Positions 3,239-37,194 of a stretch of 42,244 nucleotides of DNA are shown piece after piece. The DNA is from Niabella sp. (GTDB lineage: Bacteria; Bacteroidota; Bacteroidia; Chitinophagales; Chitinophagaceae). The stretch is from NCBI GenBank assembly GCA_027493055.1, contig JAPUDO010000066.1:25243-67486 (forward strand). Reading direction: 5' to 3'. The position numbers were made by a program, and so were the translations under genes. Under the pieces are notes generated by a model that was not told the DNA's origin, ran no database searches, and saw nothing but the letters and a program-made list of their open reading frames with translations. The number at the start of each line of letters is the position of its first letter. Position 1 is the stretch's first letter.

Positions 3239-3253
3239 GGCTGCTATTGGATT

Positions 3254-5285: not shown

Positions 5286-5319
5286 AATTATAATTATGTG
5301 CCGTAATTAAATATTGTTG

Positions 5320-9042: not shown

Positions 9043-9244
9043 ATTTAGTTTTGTTGCATAAGCCATTCATATTTCCAGCTGAAAGTGATACAGATAGAAA
9101 GCCAAAGGCAGAGCGCAGAGTGCTGATTAAGACCATTAATATTACCTATTGCAGGAAAGCGTTCTTTAAAAGAAAATAGATGAGTCCTGCATCATCGCAC
9201 ATGGCCATAAAGCAAAGACTCAGCGAAGAAGGAAATCCTAACCC

Positions 9245-10414: not shown

Positions 10415-10460
10415 TATTACTGTTTAAAATCAGGAAAAGAATATTTTTAGGTTTTAATAA

Positions 10461-10530
10461 TATCGCCAAGAGGCGATAGCATAAAAGTTCGAAGCGAGCC
10501 TGCCTGACTGCTGTCAGGGACGCCTCGAAC
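10461..10530. repeat. Paired hairpins, REP-like
   Basis: Two adjacent inverted repeats lie between the GH2 and sialidase-like genes. The first is TATCGCC-AAGA-GGCGATA (10461-10478). The second is a long imperfect hairpin (10487-10530): outer arms GTTCGAAGCG / CGCCTCGAAC with one mismatch and an inner stem CCTGAC/GTCAGG (10503-10508 and 10513-10518). They may attenuate or stabilise the transcript between the two genes, or be a dispersed repeat. Confidence 0.65.
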
Positions 10531-10545
10531 AGCATTCTGTTTGCA

Positions 10546-13002: not shown

Positions 13003-13258
13003 ATAGATACATAGTTTTTGCTATTTACACAATGTAGTAAAATGCTCATTTACCTGTGTTTTTTTCCTTTTTTAGTGTTTTAGCTACAAATTTACCTTCT
13101 CTACCACATCTCCCGCAGAGAACGTGATGTTTTTTATTGCACCGGAACCATCCAGAAGACCGGGCTGGGAAAGGTAGCTTATCAAACAAAATATTTATTA
13201 ATTTAGCAGTGGTATATCCGTGATAATCAATGATCAGATCAATATTTTAATCCCTAGT
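13003..13258. other. Divergent intergenic region
   Basis: About 255 bases between the GH2 gene (leftward) and the propeller lipoprotein (rightward). It holds a TAGTAAAA motif (13035-13042) and a minus-strand TAAATTTG (complement of 13087-13094), which fits TAnnTTTG. I could not find the conserved block of the three pectin-regulon promoters here. Promoters for both genes are expected but not placed. Confidence 0.4.
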
Positions 13259-15357: not shown

Positions 15358-15375
15358 CCCTTTATTTATTAATAA

Positions 15376-18069: not shown

Positions 18070-18086
18070 TTGCCAATACATAATAT

Positions 18087-21000: not shown

Positions 21001-21638
21001 GGCTCAATACGCACTTCATTAGTGATTACCAGATGTACCGGCCTGAAAATACCCATTGGCTGAGAGCCCTCGCTAAAGCCCCGCTCATCGCTGCACCCAC
21101 CGCAAACCCAGGGCAGATCCTTTATAAACGGCGGATGCCATGCCCGGACAGCCAGTATATTTTCGGAACCCTCTGTTTTGATCTGATCAGTTACATCAAT
21201 AGTAAAAGTGGTTCTTCCCCCGGCATGCTCTCCCACTTTTTTTTCGTTCATATATACAGTTGCATAAGAACCTACTCCTTCAAAAAACAGGAAAAAACGT
21301 TTTCCGGTTTTTGATTGTTTAATACTGATCTTTTTGCGATACCATGCATCGCCATGTTTATTGCCATGCAGCATCCGGCGGTAACCATGATAATCATCCC
21401 AGTTATGCGGTACGTTTACCTGCTTCCATTTACTGTCATCTACATTCATCTGAAAAGCAGCCGGAACAGGGTTTTCATCATTACCAGCCAGGGTTCGCCA
21501 GTTGTTATTGAGACTAGCCTCGCCCCGTGCCCCTCCGAAAGAAACGGAAACAGCATGGCGGGGGGGAACCTGGGCATAGCCAACAGTAGCGCTACAAAAC
21601 ATCCAGATAGCTGCCAGAAACGCAACGTAAGACCTCAT
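18087..21638 (-). CDS. GH2 beta-glycosidase with malectin domain
   Basis: A long family-2 hydrolase (1183 residues) with extra C-terminal modules. The open frame extends to 21860, but the first 74 codons overlap the GH95 end and read through a dispersed repeat (21639-21710). The ATG at 21638 starts a clean signal peptide, MRSYVAFLAAIWMFCSATVGYAQ, so that start is chosen. Then come the sugar-binding domain (VNVPHNWDDYHG), the barrel with acid/base motif VMWGLQNEST (about residue 441) and nucleophile motif ILVGEYGAWR (about 508), a malectin-like carbohydrate-binding domain (YRINCGGPDYTD to about residue 905), and a C-terminal beta-sandwich. The long modular tail suggests binding of a complex polymer. 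Specificity (galactosidase, glucuronidase or other) is open. Confidence 0.9.
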   Translation of the reverse strand: MRSYVAFLAAIWMFCSATVGYAQVPPRHAVSVSFGGARGEASLNNNWRTLAGNDENPVPAAFQMNVDDSKWKQVNVPHNWDDYHGYRRMLHGNKHGDAWYRKKISIKQSKTGKRFFLFFEGVGSYATVYMNEKKVGEHAGGRTTFTIDVTDQIKTEGSENILAVRAWHPPFIKDLPWVCGGCSDERGFSEGSQPMGIFRPVHLVITNEVRIEPFGVHAWADIRSSSASLHITTTLKNYSARQRKFSITHHLADRTGKIIATVSQHKTVRAATVIEIPIKNITLKKVNLWSDTDPYLYKIVSVVKENNKETDRLETDFGFRTVNWRTPTNQFVLNGKPVFINGVAEYEHLIGQGHAFSHEQVVSRVKWLQAAGFNAFRDGHQPHNLLYGKLFNEKGILWWTQLSAHVWYDTPEFRNNFKKLLKEWVVERRNDPSVVMWGLQNESTLPKAFAEECTELIRSLDPTSASQRLVTTCNGGEGSDWNVPQNWTGTYGGNPDLYGEDLKRQILVGEYGAWRTLDLHTEGGFVQNGPVSEDRFTQLMEKKLRLAESVKDSVAGHFFWLLTSHDNPGRVQGGEGLREMDRVGPVNYKGMLTPWEEPTDVFYMFRSNYVPAQKEPMVYIASHTWPNRWMQPGIKDSIIVYSNCDEVELFNDINNASLGKQKRNGTGSHFMWNKADIRYNVLYAVGYVEGKVVARDTVALYHLPQAPGLNKLYETGENLTVSQKGLNYVYRINCGGPDYTDKNGHLWRGDKTKQGPVRVGNRPEAPMTLSWTNSFPELPANFASQRRVSVPLKGSGDGELFQTFRYGKDQLKFIFPLPAGDYLAELYFIEPWIGIGSNMDGSGMRIFDVAFNDETVLNDFDIWKEAGTNRVIKKMIPFTVKNNNLTISFPESKAGQAIISAIAIATTNQEVKPAQSLPGVALIRKPEPEIKIRSWMDIGDKVFTDKEIEFNELPSVLFGAEWMQRAKHNSGILNFSTPFGADIYIAVDEQQQIPGQIKDFENANSFIVTDEDGGRKYRVYKKRFEPGSNFDFTGTQDWLIAMMFRSSMQPAYDLKPTTSYKSEVAIINSNVQKQEVSGSERTVVTGSGEAEIVWPVSTGVADVYSITVKYNNPLEQDMTGTIQLFDVSGVKMVEAPAVFKFTRPGKWNYITINTGSMINAGHYKVRLVTKNAKGLIVSNIDIQ

Positions 21639-21710
21639 CCCCCAGCCTGGCCCCCTTTGCTTTTCCCCTAAAGGAGGAAACAGAACAGAGAGAGGGAGAG
21701 AACGGAGCAT
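21639..21710. repeat. Dispersed GC-rich repeat (GACCTCATCCCCC type)
   Basis: A G/C-rich patch in an AT-rich gap: CATCCCCCAGCCTGG, then CCCCCTTTGCTTTTCCCC, TAAAGGAGG and the purine run AGAGAGAGGGAGAG. It resembles short intergenic repeats that recur in many Bacteroidota genomes. It abuts the ATG of the GH2-malectin gene, so its GGGGG could act as part of the ribosome-binding region. Base composition differs from the coding DNA on both sides. Confidence 0.6.
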
Positions 21711-21804
21711 ATCACAAAATAGCTGTATTGAAACAAAAACGCTCTCTTTCACCCTTTCTTTTCTGGTAAAAGGATTTTGTTTAAACAATTCAGAAATATA
21801 TTTT

Positions 21805-24609
21805 TTATAACTGCTGAAGCGATCCATTAAAACGATAAGTCCTGTTTTTTTGCGTTGCAATATTTACGGTTTGCCCATTATACCTGAGCTTCAAAGGCTG
21901 GCCTGCCAGCGATCTTACAGACATTGACTGTAACTTACCGGCGCTCCATTTAATGTCCAGCTCAAAGCCCCCTCTTGCCTTAATACCCTTTACCTCACCA
22001 CTGGCAAAGGCGGCAGGTAAAGCGGGGAAAATATCAATAAAACCGGTATGACTTTGAATCAGCATTTCGCCTATACCTGCTGCGCCTCCAAAGTTGCCAT
22101 CAATTTGAAACGGCGGATGCGCATCAAAAAGATTTGGATAACTACCAGCCCCACCGGTGACGGGACTTAGCAGCATCTTAATCATATGGAAAGCGTGCTC
22201 TCCATCTTTAAACCGCGCCCAGCAATTAATTTTCCAACCCAGGCTCCAGCCGGTAGCTTCATCTCCACGAAATAGTAGAGATTGCTTTGCAGCGTTCATT
22301 AAAGCCGGCGATTCATCGTAGTTGATTTCATTGCCCGGATACATACCCCACAAATGCGAAATATGCCGGTGCTTATTATTGGGGTTATCTACATCCTGCA
22401 TCCACTCCTGTAATTGCCCATATTTACCAATCATGTTTGGCGCAATCTGCTTATACTTTTCACCCAGCCTTTTTCGTAAGTCTTCATCAACATTCAAAAT
22501 GTTGGCTGCTTCAATTACGCTTTTGAATAATGCCCGTATAATCTGATGATCCATCGTAGGGCCTGCTACAAGTCCTCCCTGCTCCGGCGAATTAGATGGT
22601 GTGCTGATGAGATACCCTGTTTTAGGGTCTTTTACTAAACAGTGATCAAAAAAGAGCGCCGCTTCTTTCATTATGCTATAAGCAGTATCTCTTAAGAAAT
22701 TCTTATCCTGAGTAAACAGGTAATGCTCCCATAAATGTGTAGCCAACCATGCGCCACCCGTAGGCCAGATGCCATGGTTAGCTGCGTTGATGGGAGCTGT
22801 ACCGCGCCACAAGTCGGTATTATGATGAAGTACCCATCCCGGTGCGTTATAATGATCTTTAGCAGTTTGCTTGCCGGTAATAGCCAGGTCGCGGATCATG
22901 CTGAACAGCGGCTGGTGCATTTGCGATAAATTTAATAGTTCGGCAGGCCAGTAATTCATTTCCGCATTGATATTGGTAGTGTATTTACTACCCCAGGGGG
23001 GATTGACTAAATCGTTCCAGATACCCTGCAAATTAGCGGGCATAGTTCCCGGGCGTGATGAGGATATAAGCAGGTACCTTCCATATTGCATATATAATGC
23101 TGCAAATGCCGGATCTTTTCCATCGGCGAACCGGCTTAATCTTTCATCAGTTGGAATAGCTGCTCTTTTATCTTCGCCCAAGCTGATAAAAAATGTATTG
23201 AACCATTTCTTGTATTCTGCAATATGTGCGGTTTTCAGGCTGGTATAGGTTTTGCCCTGAATCGATTGCAGTGCTTTAACACAAGCCAGCGTGGGGTCAG
23301 CACCTGCATCATTAAAGTTTTTATAAGAAGTTCCGGCAGCTAAATAAAGCGTTGCTTCGTCGGCACCGGAAACCACAAGCGCGCCTTTATCAACCACTAA
23401 TTTACCTCCTTTCAATACTGCCTGCAAATAACCCGCTCCTTTCAGTGCCCCTGTACGCACTTTAAGAGAAAGTACCACCGTATTATTTTTCAGTTTTGTA
23501 ACGGTAAAATCACGATGCGGACTACTTAAGACAGCTTTAAAACCAAGGCTGCCTTTTTTGCTTGCCGTAAGATGCGTTACTATTGCCTGGTTGGGTGCTG
23601 AAACAAAATACTCCCTTTTATAATTTACCCCTTTGAGCGTATAAGAAGTAGTAGCCACAGCATTGGAAATATCCAGTTCTCTTTTATAATTGGTATATCC
23701 CGATGTGCTGCCAAACTCCAGGTGCAGATCGCCAAATGGCTGATAGCTGTCCTGGTACACTCCCACAGGCGGCGGATTGTCATTTACCACATGATATTTC
23801 CAATACCCATTTAAAGATATTTTCGCAGCAGGATCGTTTACCGGGTAAACGCCTATATGCACCGTAGTATCCTTGTACCCATAAATGCCTCCCTTATTTG
23901 CAAAATTTAAAACCAGTATAGCTATCGTATTCTCACCCTTCTTCAGGATGTTTTTAGGAATCATGTATTTCCGTCCTTCGGTATTTTGCTGGCTGCCTAC
24001 CAAAACCCCATTTACATAAGTGTAATCAAAATCCCTTATCCTGTTGAAATCCGCCACCATATCCTGCTCTTTCCAGTTGTAGGGCAAAACAAAACTGGTA
24101 CGCAGCCAAACAGCGCCATCCAGCCCTTCAAACCCTACTGTTTCCCATCCATCCCAACTCGGTACTTTCATAGGTTTCCAGGCTTTATCATCCATACCAG
24201 GCAAAGCAAATTTTATATCCCTGGTAACTTCTTTAATCCAGTGCTTATTATCGGCCTCTGTACTTTTCAATCCCATAAAATGTTCTTCGGCCAAAGCTTC
24301 GGCTTCTTTCTGTTTCCCTGCAAACAATAATTGCCGGATGCTGTCAAGATACTTATAGGCTCCCGGGCGACTATACTGCCGGGGTTCACCGGTCCACAGT
24401 GTTTCCTCGTTAAACTGAATGCGATCAGATGCCACCCCGCCAAACACCATAGCGCCAATACGTCCATTACCCAATGGTAATGCTTCAACCCATTTTTCTG
24501 CGGGATGCTTATACCATAGCTTTAGATCCTGCGAAAATGCTGATGAGCTTACCAGTATCCCAATGGCAAGGCTGATACCCATCGTGTATAATAAGCCTAC
24601 TTTACGCAT
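21805..24609 (-). CDS. GH95 alpha-L-fucosidase or alpha-L-galactosidase with inserted domain
   Basis: Family-95 inverting hydrolase expected to remove alpha-1,2-fucose or alpha-L-galactose from pectin side chains. The ORF opens at 24660, but MRKVGLLYTMGISLAIGILV at 24609 is the signal peptide start and lies 10 bases after the GH28 stop. N-terminal motifs EALPLGNGRIGAMVFGG and FNEETLWTG, then TNINAEMNYWPAE, HRHISHLWGMYPG, GDEATGWSLGWK and PFQIDGNFGG carry the family's catalytic Asn, Glu and Asp positions. At 934 residues it is longer than usual because residues about 115-288 hold an extra jelly-roll-like domain (VWLRTSFVLPYNWKEQDM; YVNGVLVGSQQNTEGRKY), like the sugar-binding domain of GH2 enzymes, spliced into the N-terminal domain. 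Confidence 0.92.
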   Translation of the reverse strand: MRKVGLLYTMGISLAIGILVSSSAFSQDLKLWYKHPAEKWVEALPLGNGRIGAMVFGGVASDRIQFNEETLWTGEPRQYSRPGAYKYLDSIRQLLFAGKQKEAEALAEEHFMGLKSTEADNKHWIKEVTRDIKFALPGMDDKAWKPMKVPSWDGWETVGFEGLDGAVWLRTSFVLPYNWKEQDMVADFNRIRDFDYTYVNGVLVGSQQNTEGRKYMIPKNILKKGENTIAILVLNFANKGGIYGYKDTTVHIGVYPVNDPAAKISLNGYWKYHVVNDNPPPVGVYQDSYQPFGDLHLEFGSTSGYTNYKRELDISNAVATTSYTLKGVNYKREYFVSAPNQAIVTHLTASKKGSLGFKAVLSSPHRDFTVTKLKNNTVVLSLKVRTGALKGAGYLQAVLKGGKLVVDKGALVVSGADEATLYLAAGTSYKNFNDAGADPTLACVKALQSIQGKTYTSLKTAHIAEYKKWFNTFFISLGEDKRAAIPTDERLSRFADGKDPAFAALYMQYGRYLLISSSRPGTMPANLQGIWNDLVNPPWGSKYTTNINAEMNYWPAELLNLSQMHQPLFSMIRDLAITGKQTAKDHYNAPGWVLHHNTDLWRGTAPINAANHGIWPTGGAWLATHLWEHYLFTQDKNFLRDTAYSIMKEAALFFDHCLVKDPKTGYLISTPSNSPEQGGLVAGPTMDHQIIRALFKSVIEAANILNVDEDLRKRLGEKYKQIAPNMIGKYGQLQEWMQDVDNPNNKHRHISHLWGMYPGNEINYDESPALMNAAKQSLLFRGDEATGWSLGWKINCWARFKDGEHAFHMIKMLLSPVTGGAGSYPNLFDAHPPFQIDGNFGGAAGIGEMLIQSHTGFIDIFPALPAAFASGEVKGIKARGGFELDIKWSAGKLQSMSVRSLAGQPLKLRYNGQTVNIATQKNRTYRFNGSLQQL

Positions 24610-24619
24610 GTTACAACTT

Positions 24620-26191
24620 TTAATCCCGTTTAATTTCATTAGTATTAACTTCTTTTCCAACCAAAACTAATTCATTGCGAAACAGGTTGTTTCTAAGGTT
24701 TATATTTCTTGTTTGCTCACCGGTAATTTCAAGATACCTGTCAGCGCCCTCAAACGGCCATGAGTTTTGAAGCAATACATTTTTAGTATTGTTTAATATC
24801 ACTACCGGTTTATCTGCTAAAGGTGTGGTTGTTTCAAAACCGTTAACCAGCAGGCGATCTACATTATTTGCTTTTAAAGAGCTGCCTATTGTTGTATTTA
24901 CGCGCACGTTGTGCAGCTGTATATCTTTTGCATTCCTGATAGTAATACCCTGGCTTGCGTGGAAAACCACATCATTCAGACTGATCTCGCTTACCGGCAT
25001 TTCCTCAATACCATTGATATACATAGCTTCGTTAGTATAGGCAGTTATATTGCTCAGCCTGATATTACGGAATTTTGGCGTACGATCTGAAACCGGCTCA
25101 GGAGACGACTTTGCATATTCCATATCCATAACAATAGCCTGGTCCCGTATATTTTTCATTACAATATTATCCACCCTTATATCTTCTACAACGCCACCCC
25201 TTCCACGCACTGTTTTTAAACGGATGCCCCTGTCGGTACCATCAAACACACAATTACTGATCGTGATTTTCTTAACATCGCCGCTCATTTCACTGCCAAT
25301 CACAACACCACCATGGCCAGCCAGCATAGTACAGTTGGTAATGCTGTAATTTTCTGCGGGCCTTGCTTTTGTTCTCCCCGGCAAATCTTTACCCGATTTA
25401 ATGGTAATACAGTCATCTCCCACACTAATAAAGCAATCGCTGATGCGCACATTACTGCAGCTTTCCGGGTTAATGCCATCAGTATTGGGCGCCAGGCGCT
25501 TGGGGTTCAATACTGTTACTGCATGAATGGTTACATTATCGCAAAACTGCGGGTTGATGGTCCAGAAAGGAGAGTTTTGAATAGTAATACCCTGTATAAG
25601 AATATTTTTACAGTTCATGAATTGTATGAACGGCGGGCGGAGAAAACCCCGCTTCATTTGCCTGGGATCATCGGGCAGCAAAATATCCTTATTTAACCGG
25701 TCGAACTCCAGCTGCCATTTTGATCGCGGCTGCCCCTCTTTATATCCTTCCACAAAATGCCACCATTTAGTACCATGCCCGTCAATGAGCCCACGGCCTG
25801 TTATAGTTATATTTTCCACACCATTAGCATAAAACAAGGGAGAAAAGCTGGTAACATCAACCCCTTCATACCGGCTTTCTACCATAGGCAGGTAATCATC
25901 AAAATCATCACTGAAGTGCAGCTCAGCACCGGCATCAATAAAAATGGTAATGTTACTTTTTAAATGTACAGGACCGGTCAGATATTTTCCCGCAGGAAAA
26001 TACACGGTGCCGCCGCCAGCTTTGGCTGCTGCATCGATAGCTTTCTTAATAGCGGCCGTTGCTTTGGCACTGCTGTCTTTTTTAGCGCCGTATTTAGTTA
26101 CATCATAAAAGGATTGTGCTGCGGCCGTAAGCGCTGAACAAAAAAATACCAGGAAAATAAAGCTCCGTATTATGCTATGGCAATGCATCAT
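24620..26191 (-). CDS. GH28 polygalacturonase/rhamnogalacturonase
   Basis: Inverting pectin hydrolase of family 28 (523 residues, periplasmic or secreted). The signal peptide is SIIRSFIFLVFFCSALTAAAQ. The right-handed beta-helix begins with FYDVTKYGAKKDSSAKATAA. All four family motifs are present: PNTDGINPES, SVGDDCITIKSG, AGHGGVVIGSE and RGIRLKT, which carry the catalytic Asp residues, the His and the Arg/Lys that bind the carboxylate. It is the first gene of the GH28-GH95-GH2-GH78-GH43-like operon. Whether it attacks homogalacturonan or the rhamnose-galacturonate backbone cannot be told by eye; the rhamnose-directed neighbours favour an exo-acting or rhamnogalacturonan enzyme. Confidence 0.94.
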   Translation of the reverse strand: MMHCHSIIRSFIFLVFFCSALTAAAQSFYDVTKYGAKKDSSAKATAAIKKAIDAAAKAGGGTVYFPAGKYLTGPVHLKSNITIFIDAGAELHFSDDFDDYLPMVESRYEGVDVTSFSPLFYANGVENITITGRGLIDGHGTKWWHFVEGYKEGQPRSKWQLEFDRLNKDILLPDDPRQMKRGFLRPPFIQFMNCKNILIQGITIQNSPFWTINPQFCDNVTIHAVTVLNPKRLAPNTDGINPESCSNVRISDCFISVGDDCITIKSGKDLPGRTKARPAENYSITNCTMLAGHGGVVIGSEMSGDVKKITISNCVFDGTDRGIRLKTVRGRGGVVEDIRVDNIVMKNIRDQAIVMDMEYAKSSPEPVSDRTPKFRNIRLSNITAYTNEAMYINGIEEMPVSEISLNDVVFHASQGITIRNAKDIQLHNVRVNTTIGSSLKANNVDRLLVNGFETTTPLADKPVVILNNTKNVLLQNSWPFEGADRYLEITGEQTRNINLRNNLFRNELVLVGKEVNTNEIKRD

Positions 26192-26376: not shown

Positions 26377-26462
26377 CGGAGAAAAATAATTAACTTCACC
26401 CTGTTGGATAATGCATCACAATCATGGCTACCTATAAATGCATATCCAACAAAATAAAACCT

Positions 26463-27342: not shown

Positions 27343-30066
27343 TTATTCAAATAACCAATCCACCTGCTTCCTGTTTCCGCTTTCATATAAGCCTGCATCA
27401 TATACAGGCAATGGCGCACCGGCATCAATAAAACCAAGTATTAAAGCCACGCCCCTGGCAAGCTTCAATGTGTTGTTACCGGGTTTAAAGTCATAACTAT
27501 GCACGTGCAGCTGCGGCATACCGGGCACTATCATGGCATTGGCTATTTTAGTATCTGCCTGACCGTAATCATTGGCACTCGCATTTGTTTCAAGCTCAGG
27601 TTGTTTCAGGTATGTAGTATCTACTGTAAAAGCTGCTTTTTGCGGCTTAAAAAAGCCTACCAGCACTTTTACGGGCTTTTTATTGCTGAAAGAAATTTCA
27701 GTACCATTAGTTACCTGGTCTGTGAAAGAAGTTTTCAGCCCCTGCAACCCCTTCAGCTCCCCCGCAAAAGACCTGACAGCAAAATCTTTATCGGCAAAAG
27801 GATGCGCCAAACTATCTACTGTATAAAAGCGATCATAGTTTAAAAGTGTTATCTCTGCATTTTTCAATGGTACAACCGTTTTTGCCTGGCCTGGCTTTAC
27901 ATTTTTGAGAGAGTCCAGCTTATGCTGAAAGATGGACAGCTCCTCTTCAAAGACCGGTAACACATCCGCCCAGTTCTTATACCTGCCTCCTGCGCCTGAT
28001 AAAGGAATTTTCCGTCCTCCTGTTTGCATACTGTTAGCGTACAGGTAAGCAGGTTTTGTAAGATCTGTAAGCTTTTTATACCATTCAACACTTTCTTTTA
28101 ATAACGGCAATACCCTGTCCAGGTCAGCCAGATCATTAGAATATTTGTAACGCAGCACCTGCAAAGCAGCTTCGGCCTTAAAAGCAAAGTGGTAAGCCAT
28201 AGCCCGATAGCTGTATGCATCGTTCTTAATACGTTGAAATTCCGCACTGTTCCTGGTCACGTTTTTAACGGCATCAATGGCAGCCACGGCTTTATCCCCG
28301 TGCTCTTTTACCTCCCTGATAATCTGAACCGGAGTTTCTCCTGTATGCTTTTGCCCGTTCCACTCTTTTTCGGCATATTCTGCCAGGGATTCTCCTTCGG
28401 GGCTTTCAGCTTCATACAACAAGGTAAACAGGCCATAGCGATAGGGATTGATCAGCTGTGTCATTAACATACCCAGGTTAAGCGTTTGCCGGTTACCATC
28501 TGTAATGCCAAAGCGTCTTAATAATTTGGGGGATATCTCACCGGTCTCTTCGTAAGCTTTTAAAATATTTTGCCCATCGACTTCGTTCACACCTAATTGG
28601 CTTGCCAGGCCCTTACTCCAGTACCCGATTTCTTCCGTCCTGTCTCTTTTAGCCTTCCAGGCATAACGGCTCCAGGCCTTGTACCAGAGCCAGTCTCGTT
28701 CAATCTGCAGCAGCCTTTTACCCTCTTTTACACTGTCTGCCGAATAAGGCCAGTCCCAATAAGAAGCCTGTGGGTACAGATGCAAACCATTACCACCCAT
28801 CACCTCGTGCATGCCTATTACCGAGCGCTGAATAAAATCGGCAGAAGCATAACGGAAAGGCTCCAGGTTAGCCAATATGTGCACATTCTCTATCTGAACA
28901 CTTCCCAGCTTGCTTAATGTTTGATGTAATTCAGCCCATGCACCACGCGGACGGTCATAAGTAAGCGCTTCGCCGTTAAACTTAGCCTCAGTATACAGAT
29001 TTTTATATAATGGCAAAGCAGCTTTCATAACAGCAGGAGCATCTGTATCATGCGCCCGTAAAACGATTGGTGGCTCCTCTGTTTTACCTAAAGTTTTTAA
29101 CCCATCCTGCACACCCGGGATAATCGTTTTTGTAAACCACTCAATATCATCATTCCCAACTCCCTCCATAGCCTCTCCCAGGCAAACCATTAAACCAACG
29201 TTAGGATATTTCTCAACAAATGCAGCAATGGACTTACGGGTATAATCCGCTATCAGCGGAATAATTGGCCTTTCCCGGTCCTGTGTTTTCATTCCATGTT
29301 TTTCGGCAAAGGGCTTTGATACCAGAATATTGTAAAACATCTGGATGACCCATATCCCCCGTTTATCAGCTTCCGTGGTAAGAAATTTGAAAATGTCTTC
29401 GTTCTTTTTAAAAGTAGCTTCATCTACTTCAACCGCATAAGGATAGTCCTTAAGCTTTACCAGCGAAGCAAACGGGTGGCCGTTCCATAAATACAGGGAG
29501 TTCATCCGGTTGTTTACCATAGAATCCAGCACCTGTATCCATAAATCCTTATCATAGAACCAGGGAAAAATTTCAGGAGTGTAAGGATATTCATAAACAG
29601 TTCTTCCGGGCAGATAATAGGGTTTTTGCAAGCCGATACATTCTCCGCGCAATACCATTTCAGGAGCATCTGTTATATTAATATGATCGGGCACAGACCT
29701 ATCAGAAGCAATCCTATCGGACAGCTCTAAACATCCGTATAAAATACCTGAGGCGTCTGCACCGGCAATGCGGATGTTTTTTTTATCTGTCTTTATAGAA
29801 AAACCTTCTTTTTTAAGCTGGCTGTCAAAAGTACTTTCAATAATTACCTGCTTCTGTTTTTTAGAAGACGTTCTGGCTGTATTTATTAAAGAAACAGCAT
29901 ATCCCTGTTTTTGCAGTTCCTGCTTCAGGATATCTACACCATATACCACGCGGGGTTGCGTGTTTAACGGATTTACAATCGTTATCTTTTCAATTGCTAC
30001 TGCAAATGATGTGTTCAACACTAAACAAAATACTAATAACCACCTTAATCGCAGCATCATATACAC
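27343..30066 (-). CDS. GH67-like alpha-uronidase candidate
   Basis: A 907-residue exported protein with signal peptide LRWLLVFCLVLNTSFAVA. Residues about 25-140 look like the alpha-glucuronidase N-terminal (GH20-like) domain: VVYGVDILKQELQKQGYAV, then GFSIKTDKKNIRIAGADASG and ILYGCLELSDRI. A TIM-barrel follows (NRMNSLYLWNGHPFASLVKL; IWVIQMFYNILVSKPFAEKH; GLMVCLGEAMEG; VHILANLEPFRYAS), then a helical region and a C-terminal beta-domain. Glu in CLGEAMEG is a candidate catalytic residue. It is the last gene of the MaoC-RhaT operon, 9 bases after the oxidoreductase. In a pectin locus a galacturonidase or glucuronidase is plausible; it might instead belong to another uronidase family such as GH138. 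No profile search was possible. Confidence 0.65.
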   Translation of the reverse strand: MYMMLRLRWLLVFCLVLNTSFAVAIEKITIVNPLNTQPRVVYGVDILKQELQKQGYAVSLINTARTSSKKQKQVIIESTFDSQLKKEGFSIKTDKKNIRIAGADASGILYGCLELSDRIASDRSVPDHINITDAPEMVLRGECIGLQKPYYLPGRTVYEYPYTPEIFPWFYDKDLWIQVLDSMVNNRMNSLYLWNGHPFASLVKLKDYPYAVEVDEATFKKNEDIFKFLTTEADKRGIWVIQMFYNILVSKPFAEKHGMKTQDRERPIIPLIADYTRKSIAAFVEKYPNVGLMVCLGEAMEGVGNDDIEWFTKTIIPGVQDGLKTLGKTEEPPIVLRAHDTDAPAVMKAALPLYKNLYTEAKFNGEALTYDRPRGAWAELHQTLSKLGSVQIENVHILANLEPFRYASADFIQRSVIGMHEVMGGNGLHLYPQASYWDWPYSADSVKEGKRLLQIERDWLWYKAWSRYAWKAKRDRTEEIGYWSKGLASQLGVNEVDGQNILKAYEETGEISPKLLRRFGITDGNRQTLNLGMLMTQLINPYRYGLFTLLYEAESPEGESLAEYAEKEWNGQKHTGETPVQIIREVKEHGDKAVAAIDAVKNVTRNSAEFQRIKNDAYSYRAMAYHFAFKAEAALQVLRYKYSNDLADLDRVLPLLKESVEWYKKLTDLTKPAYLYANSMQTGGRKIPLSGAGGRYKNWADVLPVFEEELSIFQHKLDSLKNVKPGQAKTVVPLKNAEITLLNYDRFYTVDSLAHPFADKDFAVRSFAGELKGLQGLKTSFTDQVTNGTEISFSNKKPVKVLVGFFKPQKAAFTVDTTYLKQPELETNASANDYGQADTKIANAMIVPGMPQLHVHSYDFKPGNNTLKLARGVALILGFIDAGAPLPVYDAGLYESGNRKQVDWLFE

Positions 30067-30075
30067 TTTAACGGT

Positions 30076-31134
30076 TTATAAAAAATCATTGATCAGTACC
30101 CCATCCCTTTCATTGCTTGCATAAGCAGCTTCCACACAGGCCATCGTCAGCAGCGCATCGTCAATACTATTCTCCGGCCTGGCAATAATGCCTGCTTTTG
30201 CTAACAACATTTGCTCCATGGTTCCAATAAAAGCATGAGGAAACCAGGTTCCGCTGATCGCTTTTGTACGCCACTGCACATTGCTGCCATCCTCTAAAGA
30301 AATATACTCAAACTTATCATCTGTTCCATGCGGGTAATTGATCAACGCACCAAAAGTTATCTTAACAGCACCCTTTGTACCTTCTATTTTTACGTACGAC
30401 TCCTGCTTCTGATAACTATAATTGTGATTATGATTGGTATGGATAACTGCACGTACCATATCCCCGTAGTCCATTATTATATTGGATCTAACCGAGGCCA
30501 GCTGCGCAGCTTCAGGATGTTTAAATGTGCGGGCCAATACCTTTCCAGGATCACCTAAAAAAGAACGTACCAGGTCTACATAATGAATACTGTGATAATT
30601 AATTTCCATACGCTCTTTTTCAAACAGGAAATCCCAGAGATTCCAGGGTGTATGAACATTCACATATACTTCTACATCGGTAATAATACCCAGCCCGCCA
30701 TCTGCGATCATCTTCCTCGCTTCTTTAATATAAGGTGCAAAGCGCATCTGGAAATTAACACCGGCCAGCATTTGCTTACCATGCGCTAAATTGTGAATGG
30801 CCTTCGCCTCATCCATACTTTCACCATAAGGCTTTTGGATCAGGACGGTTGCTTTTTCGGGTAACGCTTTAAGCACAGGTATGATCTCTGAAGCAGGCAG
30901 GGCAAAATCATAGACAGCTTCGGTTCCATTATCTGCCACCATTTCCTCAAGACTATCATACACTTTTCCGATACCAAACTTTTCAGCCAGCTTAATAGCT
31001 TTTTGCTTATTACGGTTGACTATTCCCTTTACTGTATAACCTGCAATCTTATAGGCCGGCAAATGCGCATCAGCTACAATGCCACCTGCACCAATAATAC
31101 ATATAGGAATTGCTTTGATTTGTTCCTGATCCAT
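30076..31134 (-). CDS. Gfo/Idh/MocA-family NAD(P)-dependent sugar oxidoreductase
   Basis: Cytoplasmic dehydrogenase (352 residues from 31134). The Rossmann motif is IPICIIGAGGIVADAHLPAY, and the family's EKP-like Lys occurs as VLIQKPYGE. The C-terminal domain includes EINYHSIHYVDLVRSFLGDP with paired His residues. The frame opens upstream at 31161 inside RhaT; the ATG at 31134, one base past the RhaT stop, is preferred. It probably oxidises a sugar or sugar acid to a lactone or keto form. Together with the lactonase-like amidohydrolase in the same operon it could form an oxidise-then-hydrolyse pair for rhamnose or a uronic acid; that pairing is inference. Confidence 0.88.
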   Translation of the reverse strand: MDQEQIKAIPICIIGAGGIVADAHLPAYKIAGYTVKGIVNRNKQKAIKLAEKFGIGKVYDSLEEMVADNGTEAVYDFALPASEIIPVLKALPEKATVLIQKPYGESMDEAKAIHNLAHGKQMLAGVNFQMRFAPYIKEARKMIADGGLGIITDVEVYVNVHTPWNLWDFLFEKERMEINYHSIHYVDLVRSFLGDPGKVLARTFKHPEAAQLASVRSNIIMDYGDMVRAVIHTNHNHNYSYQKQESYVKIEGTKGAVKITFGALINYPHGTDDKFEYISLEDGSNVQWRTKAISGTWFPHAFIGTMEQMLLAKAGIIARPENSIDDALLTMACVEAAYASNERDGVLINDFL

Positions 31135-31135
31135 A

Positions 31136-32161
31136 TTATACTCCTCCCAGGTAATTACCATAAGTTAACACTAACACTGCCAGTAAAAGTACCGCCAGCG
31201 CAAAAGCAAGTGCACGGCGGGTTAGAGGCCGGGTAAATTTCCACTCTTTTAATACCAGCCCAACCAGCGAGCTGCAAAACACCAGCAGGATCATGTGTAT
31301 AGCCCAGCTTGAAAACTCGAACTTTCCTAAACGCACATGTCCCAAACCATAAAAGAAAAACTGGCCATACCATAACATACCGGTTAAAAGAGCCATTAAA
31401 TAATTAATGCTTAAAGTACCTTTATTAATATGCCGGTATTCTGAAAAAGTTTTATTTTTTACATGTAGCCACAAAGTGTACAGCAATGTTGTAACAAAGG
31501 CTCCTGTGTTAGAAAATATATATACCACATTCACCTGGAAATTGCCCGCACCGTAATCAGCAGCAATGTCAGAAATAGGCTTACCTGCATTTATCGCGAA
31601 ACCATAAAATGCAGATAATATACCTGCCAGCAAACATAAAGGCAATCCTTTTTTAAATGAAAAAGCAGCATGGCTTTGTGCTACATCTTTCTCCTTCAGC
31701 CTGCCTGCTATGCCACAAAAAGCAATGCCCGCCGCACCCAGCACCACACCGGTTAATATCCATTGTCCGCCCGTTCCATTCAATACATCGCTCATGGTAC
31801 CATTCATCAGCGGGGGAATTAAAGTTCCCAGTACACAGGATATACCTACAGAAATAGCATAGGTCAGAGAAAAGCCGATATGCTTTATTGCCATACCAAA
31901 AGCGGTACCGCCTATGCCATAAGCCATTCCCAACAGGAACGAATTGCGCATTGCAGAAGCAGGTGCTTCGCTCAATACCCGGCCCAAAGACGGAATAGTG
32001 AGCCATGCAATAAACAGGGGCAGCAAAAACCAGCATACAGAAGCCTGGGCCAGCCAGTACGTTTGCCAGCTCCAGCCTTTAACTTTCTTTTCAGGGGTGT
32101 AACATAACGCTGCAGAGGAAGCGCCTACACCATGAAAAAATATGCCCCAGAATAATTGCAT
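31136..32161 (-). CDS. rhaT: L-rhamnose/proton symporter RhaT
   Basis: Inner-membrane transporter (341 residues, about ten transmembrane helices) importing L-rhamnose with a proton. It shows the family's features: an N-terminal helix with FWGIFFHGVGASSAALCYTP, FLLGMAYGIGGTAFGMAIKH, GFSLTYAISVGISCVLGTL and IPPLMNG. Its presence tells that rhamnose is a product of the extracellular enzymes, matching GH78. It sits between the amidohydrolase (60 bases upstream) and the oxidoreductase (one base downstream), so all are co-transcribed. A few RhaT-like proteins may carry other deoxy-sugars. Confidence 0.92.
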   Translation of the reverse strand: MQLFWGIFFHGVGASSAALCYTPEKKVKGWSWQTYWLAQASVCWFLLPLFIAWLTIPSLGRVLSEAPASAMRNSFLLGMAYGIGGTAFGMAIKHIGFSLTYAISVGISCVLGTLIPPLMNGTMSDVLNGTGGQWILTGVVLGAAGIAFCGIAGRLKEKDVAQSHAAFSFKKGLPLCLLAGILSAFYGFAINAGKPISDIAADYGAGNFQVNVVYIFSNTGAFVTTLLYTLWLHVKNKTFSEYRHINKGTLSINYLMALLTGMLWYGQFFFYGLGHVRLGKFEFSSWAIHMILLVFCSSLVGLVLKEWKFTRPLTRRALAFALAVLLLAVLVLTYGNYLGGV

Positions 32162-32221: not shown

Positions 32222-33076
32222 TCAGACCTTGTCCAGATTATAAAATGAAATAGCATTCCCGCTAAATATCAAACACCTTTGATGTTCATCATCAACCAAC
32301 TCTTTAATAACCTGCTTATATACCTCCCATACCTCTACATAACCTGAAGCCAGCAAAGATACCGGCCAGTCACCACCGCAAAAGCAACGGTCAGCTCCAA
32401 AAGCTGTTAATACAAAGTCTATATACGGCTTTATTACCGCTGCGCTAAATTGTTCTTTTCCTGCTGTTGTTCCCAGCCCGGAAATTTTAACGTAAAAATT
32501 TTTATGCTGTGCGGCCTGTTTCATATACTGCCCCCATTCACCAAAGCGTTCACCGCTTTTTACAGGCGGCTGGTTCAGGTGGTTAAATACCATTTTCAGG
32601 TCTGGCACCAGCTCAGCTACCCTTAAAGCAGTCTTTATATGATTTACTTTAACCCCTACCACATCAAAAGGCAGTTGATGTGCTGCCAGTACTCTTAAGC
32701 TTTCAATCACCTCTGGCCGTAATAACCACTCATCATCGGCTTCGTCATGAATCAGGTGCCTCACCCCTTTAAAATATCTTTCTGCTAAAAAAAACGACTG
32801 TAACAATTGCTCCGTTTTTGAGCTGCTGGTTAATGGTAACCAACCTACTACACCTTTGATCCAGTCATGACTGTTAGCCGCTTCTATCATCAACGCGGTG
32901 TCTTCAATAGTATTATCAGCCTGTACCAGCAGACCTGCATTAACACCGGCAGCAACACGGGAAGCTGCTAATTCTTCCAGGCTGTAGGTTTGCTGTAACA
33001 CTCTGTCAGCATTTTTTAACCATCCGTAACCAGAACGCTCCAAATCCCATATATGTACATGCGTATCAATAATCAT
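32222..33076 (-). CDS. Amidohydrolase, sugar-lactonase type (COG3618)
   Basis: Cytoplasmic metal-dependent hydrolase of 284 residues. It starts with IDTHVHIWDLERSGYGWL, the metal-binding HxH and tryptophan motif typical of the L-fucono- and L-rhamnono-lactonase group. Other signs are FKGVRHLIHDE, KMVFNHLNQPP and CFCGGDWPVSLL, where the Asp is the usual catalytic/metal residue. No signal peptide. The likely reaction is opening of a sugar-acid lactone made by the Gfo/Idh enzyme, giving a rhamnonate- or fuconate-type acid. It begins 17 bases after the CoA-transferase gene and precedes RhaT. Confidence 0.85.
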   Translation of the reverse strand: MIIDTHVHIWDLERSGYGWLKNADRVLQQTYSLEELAASRVAAGVNAGLLVQADNTIEDTALMIEAANSHDWIKGVVGWLPLTSSSKTEQLLQSFFLAERYFKGVRHLIHDEADDEWLLRPEVIESLRVLAAHQLPFDVVGVKVNHIKTALRVAELVPDLKMVFNHLNQPPVKSGERFGEWGQYMKQAAQHKNFYVKISGLGTTAGKEQFSAAVIKPYIDFVLTAFGADRCFCGGDWPVSLLASGYVEVWEVYKQVIKELVDDEHQRCLIFSGNAISFYNLDKV

Positions 33077-33093
33077 ATGAATATATATAGTTT

Positions 33094-34266
33094 CTACTGC
33101 ACACTAACTGCTTCGGGTTCTACACCTGTTTCAAATTTTAGGTCGATCTCATTATTGTGCTCACCCAATGCCGGAGCCCCGATATTATTGGAGAGCGTAC
33201 GCCCATCTATAGTTATAGGCGATCTGGTGGTTTTTATGGAAATCCCATTACTGGTCTTTACCACAATTTCCATATTCAGCAATTTATAGCCATCCTCTTC
33301 TGTCAGCTGTTTATAATCCAAAACCTTGGAACACCAAACACCTGCGGGCTCCAGTACACTTAACCAGTAAGACGTTGTATTTGTAAGAAGATGGCGCGCC
33401 AGTACTGATTTTATTTCATCTCTTTTATCAAACCAGTCCTTTTTATCATTATAAACGGTTAATGGCTTACAGCCGGTCAACACACCTAACTGAACAATAT
33501 CTGCCATTGCTATGGCTATATAATCATCTTCTGTTTTATATATACCATAAGGAGCTGCTACATAAGCATGTCCGCTGTTAACAGCGCTGCGCTGAGGTAG
33601 CCGCCCACCGTCATTAAAATAGCAGGTTAATACTTCAAACTGGAAGTCCAGGGCACTTTCCAGCATACTTACCTGTATGCTGCCCCCCTCACCTGTAATA
33701 CCTTTACGATATAAAAGAGAAAGAATACCCTGCGCCAGGTGTCCTCCTGCCAGCATATCCACCACCGAAACGCCCATTGGCGTGGGATTAGCACTGCTGC
33801 TATTATTCAACCAGGCAAGGCCTGATACAGACTGAAGCAACAGATCCTGGCCCGGTAAATGTTTCCAGTCGCCGTTTTCACCATAACCGGTTATGTTAGC
33901 ATAAATTACAGAAGGGTTAAGCTGCTTTACACTCTCGTAATCAAAACCTAATCTTTCCATTACGCCCGGTCGGAAATTGTGCATCACCACATCAGCCTTT
34001 TCAATTATTTTTTTGATCCTGCTTACATCATCCGGACTTTTAAGATCAGCTGCATAGCTTTTTTTATTCCGGTTGATGGCATGGAATATAGAAGATTCTC
34101 CATCAATGACCACATCAGACACGTACAACTCCCTGCAGATATCGCCCGTTCCGGGCTTTTCAATTTTCACTACATCTGCACCAAAATCGGCCAGACATAA
34201 GGATGCAGAAGGCCCGGAAAGGAACTGGCTAAAATCAACCACTAATATATCCTGCAGGAATTTCAT
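33094..34266 (-). CDS. CaiB/BaiF family III CoA-transferase (1)
   Basis: Cytoplasmic enzyme of 390 residues that moves CoA between carboxylic acids. The start MKFLQDILVVDFSQFLSGPS, the motif HAINRNKKSYAADLKS, VVMHNFRPGVMERLG and the PGQDLLLQSVSGLAWL block are classic. The active-site Asp of the family corresponds to Asp170 in GVSVVDMLAGG and is conserved. Start and stop overlap its paralogue by a TAATG arrangement, which implies translational coupling and perhaps a two-subunit enzyme. A family III CoA-transferase is unusual in a pectin locus; the acid substrate is unknown. Confidence 0.93.
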   Translation of the reverse strand: MKFLQDILVVDFSQFLSGPSASLCLADFGADVVKIEKPGTGDICRELYVSDVVIDGESSIFHAINRNKKSYAADLKSPDDVSRIKKIIEKADVVMHNFRPGVMERLGFDYESVKQLNPSVIYANITGYGENGDWKHLPGQDLLLQSVSGLAWLNNSSSANPTPMGVSVVDMLAGGHLAQGILSLLYRKGITGEGGSIQVSMLESALDFQFEVLTCYFNDGGRLPQRSAVNSGHAYVAAPYGIYKTEDDYIAIAMADIVQLGVLTGCKPLTVYNDKKDWFDKRDEIKSVLARHLLTNTTSYWLSVLEPAGVWCSKVLDYKQLTEEDGYKLLNMEIVVKTSNGISIKTTRSPITIDGRTLSNNIGAPALGEHNNEIDLKFETGVEPEAVSVQ

Positions 34267-35405
34267 TATAATAAAAATTCTCCTTTAATTTTTTCAGTAT
34301 GCTGCCCCAGTAAGGGTGCCGGCCTGTCAGAAATCATTTTTTTTCCATTAATACGAATGGGGCAACCTGTAGTAAAATAATCTTCTCCGTTCCCGGCATT
34401 GATCCTGATCTCCATTTCTGTGCTCTTATACAGCTCCGTTTGTGTTAAGGCATCCCAGTTGTTTACATTCGATGCCCATAAACCTAACGACACCAGGCGC
34501 TGCAACCAATACTCACTGCTGTTGGTCAATAACTTTTTTTGAATAATGTGGTTGTGATCATCACGGTTTTCAAACACATCCTGTTGTGTATAGCCGTACA
34601 ATTCAGTGGTACCCAGAGCCCGTTGCAGCAAAGGCATACTCATCATAGCCAGTGCAATATATCCGTCTGCTGTTTTATAAATCCCGTAAGGCGCTCCTAA
34701 TAATGGATTGCCATTGCTCACCTTACTTCTTTTTATCCCCCGCCTGCTATGATAATGAGTAGTAAAAAGCTCAAACTGAAAGCTGATGGCTGACTCTAAA
34801 AGGCTTAGTTCTACATAAGCCCCAATACCCATCTTCTGGCGACGTATAAGCGCTGCCAATATACCCTGCACCGCATGTATCCCGCAAATACTGTCTACAA
34901 TAGAAAGGCCGAAAGGCATAGGCCCCTCTCCTTCATCGCCGGTAGTATAGGTAAGCCCGGATAAAGATTGCAGCAGCAGATCCTGGCCGGGTTTATCTTT
35001 CCACGGCCCCTTTTTACCATAGCCGGTTATTTCTGCATAAACAATACGATTGTTTATTTTCCTCACATCGCTGTAGGCAAGGCCTATCTTTTCCATCACA
35101 CCCGGCCTGAAATTATGCGTAATTACATCAGCTTTTGTAATCAGCTTTTGTACTAATGCAAGATCCTCTGCGTTTTTCAGATCGGCAGTAAAGCTTTCTT
35201 TATTCCGGTTGATGGCATGAAAATTAAGGGCATCCTCTCCTACCCATAAATTTTTTATAGCTAAGCTCCTGCATGGATCTCCGGTTACGGGCCGCTCTAT
35301 CTTTATAACGCGCGCGCCCAGGTCGGCCAGCCTTAAGCCGGCAGAAGGACCAGACAGATATTGGCTGAATTCAAGAACAATAAGACCTTTTAACGGCAAA
35401 GACAT
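34266..35405 (-). CDS. CaiB/BaiF family III CoA-transferase (2)
   Basis: Paralogue (379 residues) of the next gene, with the same motifs: VLEFSQYLSGPSAGLRLADL, HAINRNKESFTADLKN, DVITHNFRPGVMEKIG, DKPGQDLLLQSLSGLTY and catalytic Asp171 in GLSIVDSICG. The ATG overlaps the stop of the binding-protein-like gene (TAATG). Two such genes in series may act on different acids, or form a heteromer as in some family III systems. No CoA-lyase or ligase gene is found in the window, so the pathway is incomplete here. Confidence 0.93.
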   Translation of the reverse strand: MSLPLKGLIVLEFSQYLSGPSAGLRLADLGARVIKIERPVTGDPCRSLAIKNLWVGEDALNFHAINRNKESFTADLKNAEDLALVQKLITKADVITHNFRPGVMEKIGLAYSDVRKINNRIVYAEITGYGKKGPWKDKPGQDLLLQSLSGLTYTTGDEGEGPMPFGLSIVDSICGIHAVQGILAALIRRQKMGIGAYVELSLLESAISFQFELFTTHYHSRRGIKRSKVSNGNPLLGAPYGIYKTADGYIALAMMSMPLLQRALGTTELYGYTQQDVFENRDDHNHIIQKKLLTNSSEYWLQRLVSLGLWASNVNNWDALTQTELYKSTEMEIRINAGNGEDYFTTGCPIRINGKKMISDRPAPLLGQHTEKIKGEFLL

Positions 35406-36553
35406 TATGCAGCAACTTTTTTCTTTAAAGATTCCTGGTATATAGCGTTCAGCTTTTCAATAACCAGCTTTTCATTTTTTTGCTTACCCGATAAATATTC
35501 CTGTATATACAGCCCTGCTTCATCCTGGAAGTGCAGGTACCCATGGTAACGCGGACGCATATATCCATTTTCCATAACGGGTAAAACATTAGTAAAGAAG
35601 TTATGCGTAAGCTTATTATTCAAATCACTTTGCCATGCCTTTAAATACCCTGGCTGCCCTTCATTATATGTATAACCATTGGTTTGAAACTGCGGTGAGC
35701 ACACCATTGCGGCATAGGCAATCGCCTCTGGTTTATGATTTGAAAAAGCAGATACTGAAAGGCCTGTACCCCCAATAGTAGTGCTCAGCTTTTTACCCTT
35801 ATAGCTAACCACATCCGTATAATGAAGCAAATTCCCTGCATAACCCAAACGGGAATAATTAGTATAGCAATAAGCAAACGGACAATAAGCATAATGATCC
35901 GTTCCAACCATAGCTTCGGCAACTGCTATCGGGTTTCTTTCAAACATAGATTGATCCACCAACGAATATAGCTCATACATGGCACATAAGGCTAAAATAC
36001 CCGTATGCTCATTTATTACTTCTTTTGTATCAGCAAATGGTGTTTCTCCATGTGCTATACAAAAAGTATAAAAGTTCATTAACAAGTCTATAGGTATGGC
36101 CGGCACTGCTACCCTGCCTGCCCTGGCCAGGCTCAGCACTTCTTCCCAGGTTTGAGGAACAGTATCCAGTAAATCCTTCCTGTAACTGGCTGCCGGCGCT
36201 GCAGCATCAACAGCGAGGGCCCATTGATGCCCGTCGTAATGATAGCTTGAATGAGAAGCACCCACACTGTTCTCCAGTTGGTCCTGTAAATAACCGGCAG
36301 ACAAATGTTCATCAAGCGGCAGTACACAACGCGTAGCTGCTGCTGTTCCTACCCAGGGATGATCAATAATTAAGAGATCATATTCCTCTGTCAGCTTCTC
36401 TATGGGATAATCGGCAAACTGTTGCAGACTGCGCTTATGCCATTGCACTTCCACATTGGGGTGCAGTTCTGTAAAACGCTGAGCTGCTGCCTGCAATGGT
36501 GTTATACCCCGACTATGGCCCCAGGTTATTCCTTTTAAAATGATATCAGGCAT
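35405..36553 (-). CDS. Substrate-binding-protein fold without signal peptide
   Basis: A 382-residue protein of the carbohydrate ABC-transporter binding-protein (SBP) fold: [52 protein letters not shown] and [21 protein letters not shown] are typical. The chain begins directly with the first strand ([11 protein letters not shown]), with no signal peptide or lipid anchor, and no ABC permease or ATPase gene is near. It is therefore probably cytosolic, as a binding protein, enzyme or subunit with the coupled CoA-transferases. Its start overlaps the MaoC end by 8 bases and its stop overlaps the next ATG by 1. The function is not known; the fold call is good. Confidence 0.8.
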
Positions 36554-36995
36554 CCGGATTCCTTTTTTCTACCAGCAATAAATGCTCACACACCATTACC
36601 AGCTCTTTATGCTGGTTATGCACTTCCAGCAGTTCTGTTACAATGCCATAACCCGGCTTTTTATGATCCTTTTTGTCTTTTATAATAATAGTAGTGCTGA
36701 TGGTATCATTAATATATACCGGGCGTATAAAACGCAGCCTTTCATATCCATAGGTCATGGCTACTTCATTAATAACGCCAGCCGTTAAGCCCACGCCTAC
36801 AGTAAAGATCAGTGTGCCATGTGCTATACGGTGTTTAAACGGTTGTGTTTTACACCACTCCTCATCCATGTGATGCGGGTAAAAATCACCCGACTGTCCT
36901 GCATGTAATACAATATCTGCGTCTGTAATCGTTCTTCCTGTGGTTTTTCGGGAATCGTTCAGGGCAAAATCCTCATAGTATATTTTAACGCTCAT
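36546..36995 (-). CDS. MaoC-like (R)-specific hydratase/dehydratase
   Basis: A 149-residue hot-dog-fold protein. The ORF opens at 37037, but [14 protein letters not shown] at 36995 is the family-like start; the predicted promoter (37021-37086) overlaps the longer version, which also argues for 36995. Hydratase signature: [13 protein letters not shown] with Asp37 and His41/His42 as catalytic candidates, followed by [17 protein letters not shown]. It would add or remove water on an enoyl- or hydroxyacyl-CoA. It is the first gene of the operon with the SBP-like protein and two CoA-transferases, so all likely process one acid as its CoA ester. Confidence 0.88.
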
Positions 36996-37020: not shown

Positions 37021-37086
37021 CGAAAATATATCAACACAGTACTTTAAAAAATGGGTTGTTTCACTAATGTGATGTAATATCTTACT
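37021..37086 (-). promoter_or_regulatory. Pectin-regulon promoter, copy C (MaoC/CoA-transferase operon)
   Basis: Aligned without gaps to copy B, 30 of 41 core positions (37046-37086) are identical, including TTTCACTAA, GATG and TTACTA. At exactly the same offset as in copies A and B there is a -7-like TATTTTCG (complement of 37021-37028; one mismatch to TAnnTTTG). The -33 TTG is replaced by TTT. The predicted transcript would begin near 37014, about 19 bases before the MaoC ATG. Confidence 0.62.
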
Positions 37087-37194
37087 AAGCCATTAATGAT
37101 GCTATCCTGCCCTTTTCCCAGAAGAAAAAGAGCAGGGAATAATTATTAAACCTACTTTTTCTTAAAGAAATCTATAATTTTACTATACCTGTTT

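Follow-up and report, generated by a model that had tools for sequence, protein, structure and literature searches.

A 21-bp direct repeat before pectin and CoA-transferase genes of Niabella, a probable operator of an AraC-family activator

Escherichia coli AraC is a one-component regulator. It joins a ligand domain to a DNA-binding part with two helix-turn-helix (HTH) motifs, and at araI1-araI2 it uses tandem half-sites placed 21 bp apart. Likewise, 21-bp direct repeats are predicted for AraC-family rhamnose regulators of Bacteroides, according to part of one study (PMC3870299). The same part of that study gives the RhaR group rhamnose catabolic targets and a motif unique to each group. In Bacteroides thetaiotaomicron, HTCS_Rgu runs rhamnogalacturonan loci via direct repeats bound by AraC-type domains. 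The locus itself codes for this hybrid sensor kinase. More generally, the motifs of the hybrid two-component systems (HTCS) of this species are predicted direct repeats with an average of 21 bp (these points come from part of PMC3878776). A direct repeat of about 21 bp is thus common to HTCS and one-component AraC regulators and does not distinguish between them. In the titles and abstract openings of the open-licence papers listed by our searches, we found no description of the regulon presented here, nor of such a regulator for a Chitinophagaceae pectin locus.

We analyzed a stretch of 42,244 nucleotides of a Niabella genome (the window, positions 25243-67486 of contig C66). This genome, G000, has 5,747,285 bases in 131 contigs; other G-numbers are sampled genomes. 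The original prediction proposed three matching promoters, A, B, and C, on one strand of the window. All three are present on that strand, with the -7 boxes at the single offset that it claimed (Table 1). The identities that it gave are exact in register (49/59 positions between A and B, 30/41 between B and C). Across the whole promoter, A and B are identical at 53 of 65 positions. The downstream genes are also those predicted. Copy A stands before a DUF3826 gene and a pectate lyase, B before susCD, and C before the MaoC/SBP/CaiB/RhaT operon. A fourth copy, D, lies at C66:13205, about 12 kb to the left of the window, upstream of another susCD pair.

The genes from MaoC through alpha-D-galacturonidase form operon C, with intergenic gaps of 60 nt or less. 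A gap of 1,151 nt, holding an antisense gene, sets the hydrolase run off from this operon. Read-through from C into the hydrolase run would place the full 30 kb under control. To the left of the window, the pectate lyase is followed by a related gene (58%) and then by a DUF6298 gene. The SBP-fold protein carries a GITWxHSRG-like motif at its N-terminus. In 41 loci (L275-L315, own included), this N-terminus is not hydrophobic. The most hydrophobic 10-residue stretch reaches at most 1.56, versus at least 2.15 in nine locus genes with apparent signals; the measure is crude, as the oxidoreductase also gives 2.53.

Table 1. Coordinates of promoter elements and genes in the window
Feature	Position	Strand	Remarks
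Operator A, CAGTAAAATCTTCCAT / TAGCGAAACCTTGCAT	3201..3239	-	54.6 bits with the relatives' matrix; overlaps -33 TTG 3201-3203
-7 box of A, TAACTTTA	3173..3180	-	predicted start ~3166; leader ~24 nt to DUF3826
Operator B, TAGTAAAATTTTCCAT / TAGTGAAACCTTGCAT	9005..9043	-	53.0 bits; overlaps -33 TTG 9005-9007
-7 box of B, TACTTTTG	8977..8984	-	predicted start ~8970; leader ~321 nt to susC
Operator C, TAGTAAGATATTACAT / TAGTGAAACAACCCAT	37049..37087	-	40.6 bits; overlaps -33 TTT 37049-37051
-7 box of C, TATTTTCG	37021..37028	-	predicted start ~37014; leader ~19 nt to MaoC
MaoC-like hydratase, first gene of operon C	36546..36995	-	start codon picked from orthologues
SBP-fold protein	35405..36553	-	no apparent export signal
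CoA-transferase family III, CaiB1	34266..35405	-	
CoA-transferase family III, CaiB2	33094..34266	-	45% to CaiB1
Amidohydrolase_2, L-fucono-1,5-lactonase-like	32222..33076	-	142 bits, below that family's 400-bit cut-off
RhaT-family sugar:proton symporter	31136..32161	-	
Gfo/Idh/MocA oxidoreductase	30076..31161	-	
Alpha-D-galacturonidase	27343..30066	-	NF049878, 1428 bits, above cut-off 1300
GH28, GH95, GH2/malectin, GH78, Glyco_hydro_130-like, GH2, BNR_2 run	9245..26191	-	no own operator
susC-susD pair behind B	3303..8649	-	susC named by similarity to flank TonB-plug protein
DUF3826 gene behind A	2483..3142	-	
Pectate lyase	723..2366	-	E 1.9e-44 to chain 9buj, a pectate lyase by name

The candidate regulator is an AraC-family protein of 301 amino acids, coded at C51:3607-4509. 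It has an HTH_18 domain and a predicted cupin-type ligand domain. Its own genome has 54 AraC-domain matches, none of them on contig C66. The region of the CaiB operon in G023 contains the gene of a 302-aa AraC protein, whose orthologue in our genome is the C51 protein (57% identical). The G023 protein (P0002) belongs to the one-component AraC/XylS type, with 68.3 bits for PF12833 and 49.3 bits for PF02311, both above the cut-offs. The C51 protein obtains 74.7 bits for PF12833 and aligns over its full length to AraC. Its identity to E. coli AraC is 25% over 279 positions. The best NCBIfam match is the AraC equivalog PRK10572, with 88 bits. This value is below the cut-off of 208, so the protein is not assigned to AraC proper. 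Of 40 aligned rows (one of them a duplicate), at least 95% contain the HTH signatures SxSRFSxLF and GFDDPYYFS. They resemble SPSRLSHLF and GFDDQLYFS of AraC. Six paralogues mostly have SxSHxSxLF.

Regarding E. coli, the proposed C51 system shares with AraC the one-component architecture, the tandem half-sites 21 bp apart, and similar HTH signatures. It differs in the low identity, in the Bacteroidota-type promoter of the host, and in its predicted pectin-locus target. In the araBAD-araC region, araI1-araI2 is the best 21-bp pair for the operator matrix described below, yet its score is negative (-19), which makes this a likeness and not a proof. Alone, araI1 ranks sixth in that region.

The search pattern was derived from the copies themselves. 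For this reason, we built an independent matrix from relatives only, with 17 sites of 7 same-genus genomes and our own genome left out. Seven same-genus loci (G001, G002, G003, G005, G007, G008, and G011) were read, and the site is located before the MaoC/SBP operon in all of them, although MaoC itself is absent from the gene list in G002 and G011. DUF3826 is listed in five (G003, G005, G007, G008, and G011). In 5/5, the site precedes DUF3826, and susC comes then. The comparison of orthologous operons that the original prediction called for therefore finds the site before the same operons in relatives. In our window, the DUF3826 gene is behind susCD, with its own copy A, and this suggests that A and B arose by the duplication of one promoter.

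Within the genus, an orthologue of the AraC protein is found in 14 of 17 genomes, our own included. The G002 copy is broken by frame changes. All 14 genomes have pattern matches at such loci; the loci were read in eight (our own and the seven above), and the other six are known by pattern match alone. G006, G013, and G014 have no orthologue. They show 1, 0, and 1 matches, respectively, all with 3 mismatches. The G013 genome is 74% complete, and both G013 and G014 carry homologues of the AraC protein with 39-42% identity. At this level, co-occurrence is confounded with the presence of the operon. We therefore repeated the comparison across the family and included as controls genomes with the operon only or AraC only, as well as a paralogue.

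Among 244 sampled genomes of the family, 37 have the orthologue (E 1e-85 or better) and 42 the SBP marker of the operon (E 1e-60 or better). At least three relaxed motif matches occur in 28/37 genomes with the orthologue and in 10/207 without it (Fisher 8e-21). For the reversed control, the corresponding counts are 3/37 and 5/207. The mean number of relaxed matches is 3.79 in the 34 genomes with both genes and 4.33 in the 3 with AraC only. With SBP only (8 genomes), it is 0.75, and with neither (199), 0.64. The reversed pattern gives 0.76, 0.00, 1.38, and 0.57 for these four groups. The presence of the motif thus goes with the regulator and not with the operon. The AraC-only group is defined by the SBP marker, and in two of its three genomes (Pinibacter), MaoC and CaiB genes do occur near the regulator. 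As a further control, we took a 38% paralogue, present in 23 genomes. The orthologue is missing from 14 of these, and none of the 14 has three or more matches.

We also looked directly upstream of the SBP/CaiB operon. An operator above 9 bits is found in 30 of the 34 genomes with the orthologue. This line was chosen after the scores were seen; shuffles reach 7.1 bits, and 26/34 genomes exceed 20 bits. Three of the 34 (G003, G007, and G008) had sites in the training set of the matrix. In the eight genomes without the orthologue, none of the nine loci has the operator, and the best score is -2.4 bits. Just two of these nine have MaoC adjoining, and one has no more than 313 nt of upstream DNA. 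The four genomes with the orthologue that lack a good site before the operon are G020, G152, G194, and G209. The site is degenerate in G152, MaoC is displaced in G194, and the stretch read in G209 and G020 shows no MaoC. G020 has one 26.4-bit site elsewhere, near its regulator. G023, G102, G222, and G031 have a site below 20 bits with a poor second half. Part of the co-occurrence could come from the shared inheritance of a niche package.

The regulator gene is linked to the locus in some genomes. In G004, G005, G009, and G010, the AraC gene is one gene away from the GH95-GH28-galacturonidase end. In a set of named genomes, 204 loci were found, of which 80 were kept, with 72 orthologues (57-91%) and 8 distant homologues (36-43%). 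At least two locus genes are near the regulator (up to 10 kb on each side) in 15/72 orthologue loci and in 0/8 distant ones. The genera with linkage include Pinibacter, Segetibacter, Filimonas, Flavisolibacter, Ilyomonas, Parafilimonas, and Niabella. In the other 57/72, fewer than two locus genes are near, and our genome is likewise, with the regulator on another contig. A site is found near the regulator in 14/72 orthologue loci (four below 23 bits) and in one of the eight distant loci, where it is weak. No site is present in thirty other AraC-domain loci (97,080 nt). General autoregulation of the AraC gene was considered and rejected, given that the site is beside the gene in just 3 of 29 loci scanned and missing in 26. 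Weak sites are located beside a 43% homologue (L398, Pedobacter steynii, 9944) and about 80 bp upstream of a paralogue (G093:C1:6554362), which hints at similar operators for related AraC proteins.

The original prediction assumed one activator of the hybrid two-component or AraC type. Control of these promoters by an HTCS, whose AraC-type domain would bind the 21-bp direct repeats, has some points in its favor. An HTCS is coded at this locus in G003 and G012, and the genome of the window codes for several HTCS-like proteins. Nevertheless, we consider this reading quite improbable. Contig C66 is devoid of AraC-domain matches, as stated above. The G003 HTCS (P0001) is attractive by its position in the locus; it has no orthologue in the genome of the window (best 33%). 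Among the 17 genus genomes, its orthologue occurs just in G012, with best matches of 31-36% elsewhere. No HTCS gene placed in the locus and conserved together with the motif was found, and the motif tracks the one-component AraC orthologue. Thus, of the two types, the one-component AraC type is retained and the hybrid two-component type is disfavored. A LacI-type gene beside the G007 locus, named from its N-terminus, was also discarded, the operator being a direct repeat and not a palindrome.

The anatomy of the promoters was studied in 21 sites, the 17 of the relatives and the four of our genome. Along the transcript, TAGTRAAA..TnCAT occurs twice as a direct repeat of 21 bp, and this repeat is the conserved unit. 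The self-similarity of the sites is 11.5/17 positions at lag 21 and at most 6.5 at any other lag from 10 to 32. Housekeeping promoters of Bacteroidota have TTG at -33. In our set, TTG is present at this box in 13/21 sites (A, B, and D among them) and TTT in 8/21 (C among them). All eight TTT sites are promoters of the MaoC/SBP operon (8/8 read in the genus), and the other 13 sites have TTG. This raises the possibility of unequal promoter strength between the two arms of the regulon. With CATTG or CATTT at its end, the second half-site overlaps the -33 element. The original prediction had placed the conserved block just upstream of -33, and this detail has to be corrected. So, there are two half-sites 21 bp apart with the proximal one at -35/-33, as in an AraC-type operator.

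The -7 box TAnnTTTG is the housekeeping sigma-A consensus in Flavobacterium, as part of one report describes (PMC9723704). Our promoters show this box at a fixed distance, as in Bacteroidota housekeeping promoters. B reads TAGTAAAATTTTCCATCCCCTTAGTGAAACCTTGCATTG-N20-TACTTTTG along the transcript. Its box is perfect, and those of A and C have one mismatch each. TAnnTT is at one offset in 20 of the 21 sites; the exception is G002, before the SBP operon, where the spacing is one base shorter. In the operon promoters of AraC-bearing genomes, TAnnTT is at the fixed offset in 27/30, with two or fewer at each of the other offsets tested (14-26). By analogy, this geometry is that of an AraC-type dimer adjoining RNA polymerase. 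The predicted leaders of susC are long, about 320 nt for promoter B (8650-8970, minus strand) and about 250 nt for the susC site of G003, and may carry further control.

The overlap with -33 allows for the opposite sign of control. The protein could mainly repress by covering this box, with an inducer releasing it. Half-site 2 overlaps -33 in the 21 aligned sites, and the annotation of AraC in E. coli names it a dual regulator. However, the TTT sites, all before the MaoC/SBP operon, are as expected of activator-dependent promoters. Moreover, the tandem araI1-araI2 is the activating arrangement in E. coli, according to part of PMC4760080. We regard repression as the main mode as very improbable.

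The copies could also be repeated DNA, from a duplicated promoter or a mobile repeat, with no shared regulator. The likeness of A and B across the whole promoter is compatible with a duplication when DUF3826 moved behind susCD. The distribution of conservation indicates otherwise. In the 21 sites, the operator has 1.50 bits per column and the -7 box 1.37, versus 0.31 in the first 15 columns past the operator, 0.87 in the next five, and about 0.3 in the flanks. The information is concentrated in the two elements, so the conservation is not the simple shared descent of the whole region. Likewise, the sites are conserved across genera, and further copies are missing from the genome. With up to 3 mismatches, TTTCRCTAAnnnGATGnnnnATnTTACT has 3 matches in the window, versus 0.01 expected from shuffles. 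The exact pattern has 3 matches in the whole 5.75-Mb genome, all in the window, and 0 for the reversed control. When up to 3 mismatches are allowed, the genome has 4 matches, all on contig C66, and the control has 2. The whole-genome search thus shows neither a many-copy repeat nor a mobile element, and the block is confined to the locus instead of being spread over many unrelated genes. We find an origin as repeated DNA extremely improbable.

The matrix of the relatives agrees with this confinement. D obtains 52.1 bits, and A, B, and C the scores of Table 1. The next-best scores are 22.6 and 11.8 bits in the 321,546 nt of own DNA scanned, a part of the genome with overlaps counted twice. In 10 Markov sequences of contig size, the maximum is 3.7 bits. 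The 22.6-bit match, C66:20630, is oriented against the adjoining genes and was treated as a relic. A looser family pattern has matches outside C66 in contigs C105 and C79 only. Both were rejected. The C105 match is a lone half-site (11.8 bits), and the C79 match is weak, with nothing above 10 bits with the matrix.

Finally, we give next to no credence to an ECF sigma/anti-sigma pair driving the locus: a FecR-type anti-sigma gene (C66:18803-19888) does precede a different susCD pair to the left of the window, but the promoters bear the TAnnTTTG-like -7 box of the housekeeping type (PMC9723704, in part), and the susCD next to FecR has no site in its orientation. This region (18803-20377) also has a small gene next to FecR, a sigma factor by position alone. 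Two regulatory systems stand here side by side.

A shared regulon is, then, the best reading, as the original prediction proposed, and the 21-bp repeat, the fixed promoter phase, the restriction to the locus, the conservation in relatives, and the co-occurrence with the C51 protein all agree on it. From sequence evidence, we consider it highly likely that A-D are operators of a one-component cytoplasmic AraC-family activator, the C51 protein, which would switch the pectin uptake and lyase genes and the CoA operon together. The pectin breakdown genes and the CoA operon are very probably turned on together. Co-occurrence and linkage lead us to infer binding by the C51 protein, and analogy suggests activation by it. 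A pectin breakdown product is the natural guess for the ligand.

In this AraC-type activation, the trigger would be an internal pectin-derived sugar or acid bound by the protein. The dimer would then bind one face of the DNA at the 21-bp direct repeat, comparable to E. coli AraC at araI1-araI2. The promoter-proximal monomer would overlap -33 and recruit RNA polymerase to a promoter of the TTG-N20-TAnnTTTG type. Through A, B, and D, the outer-membrane uptake and lyase genes would be switched on. Simultaneously, C would switch on the cytoplasmic MaoC/SBP/CaiB/RhaT/oxidoreductase operon and the galacturonidase.

Compared with the RhaR group (PMC3870299, in part), whose targets are rhamnose catabolic genes, the targets here are pectin uptake, lyases, and the CoA-transferase operon. 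Like HTCS_Rgu (PMC3878776, in part), the system joins direct repeats and AraC-type domains at pectin-type loci. Unlike it, the candidate regulator here is a soluble one-component protein, often unlinked. That such a protein appears to run a whole pectin locus is less usual. A conserved CoA-transferase module containing an SBP-fold protein without apparent export is another less usual feature of the locus. This indicates that one-component AraC proteins, besides HTCS and ECF systems, run polysaccharide loci in the phylum, even if coded far away. For the Chitinophagaceae pectin locus, a specific candidate regulator, a precise operator, and predicted starts are now at hand and directly testable. 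In addition, the tie to pectin leaves fewer candidate substrates for an operon of obscure chemistry.

More tentatively, the regulon may expose an undescribed route for the catabolism of a pectin-derived sugar acid, a possibility that we hold to be somewhat doubtful. In it, the soluble AraC sensor would turn on pectin uptake along with a CoA-thioester module, and the SBP would perhaps be a CoA-transferase subunit. The module would consist of two family III CoA-transferases, the MaoC hydratase, a lactonase-like hydrolase, an oxidoreductase, and the SBP, and it would be cytoplasmic. The apparently non-exported SBP may have become the substrate-handling subunit of the CoA-transferases.

Two genes are antisense within the hydrolase run, a Transposase_31 (YhgA-like) gene (26424-27341, plus strand) and a lone Reg_prop protein (13220-14266, plus strand). 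Both are absent at these places in G003 and G008. On C51, the neighbors of the regulator (4697-8451) code for a DUF5703 protein and an esterase of the SASA type, and in many genera they are likewise found next to it. Although without the site, they are candidates for the same pathway.
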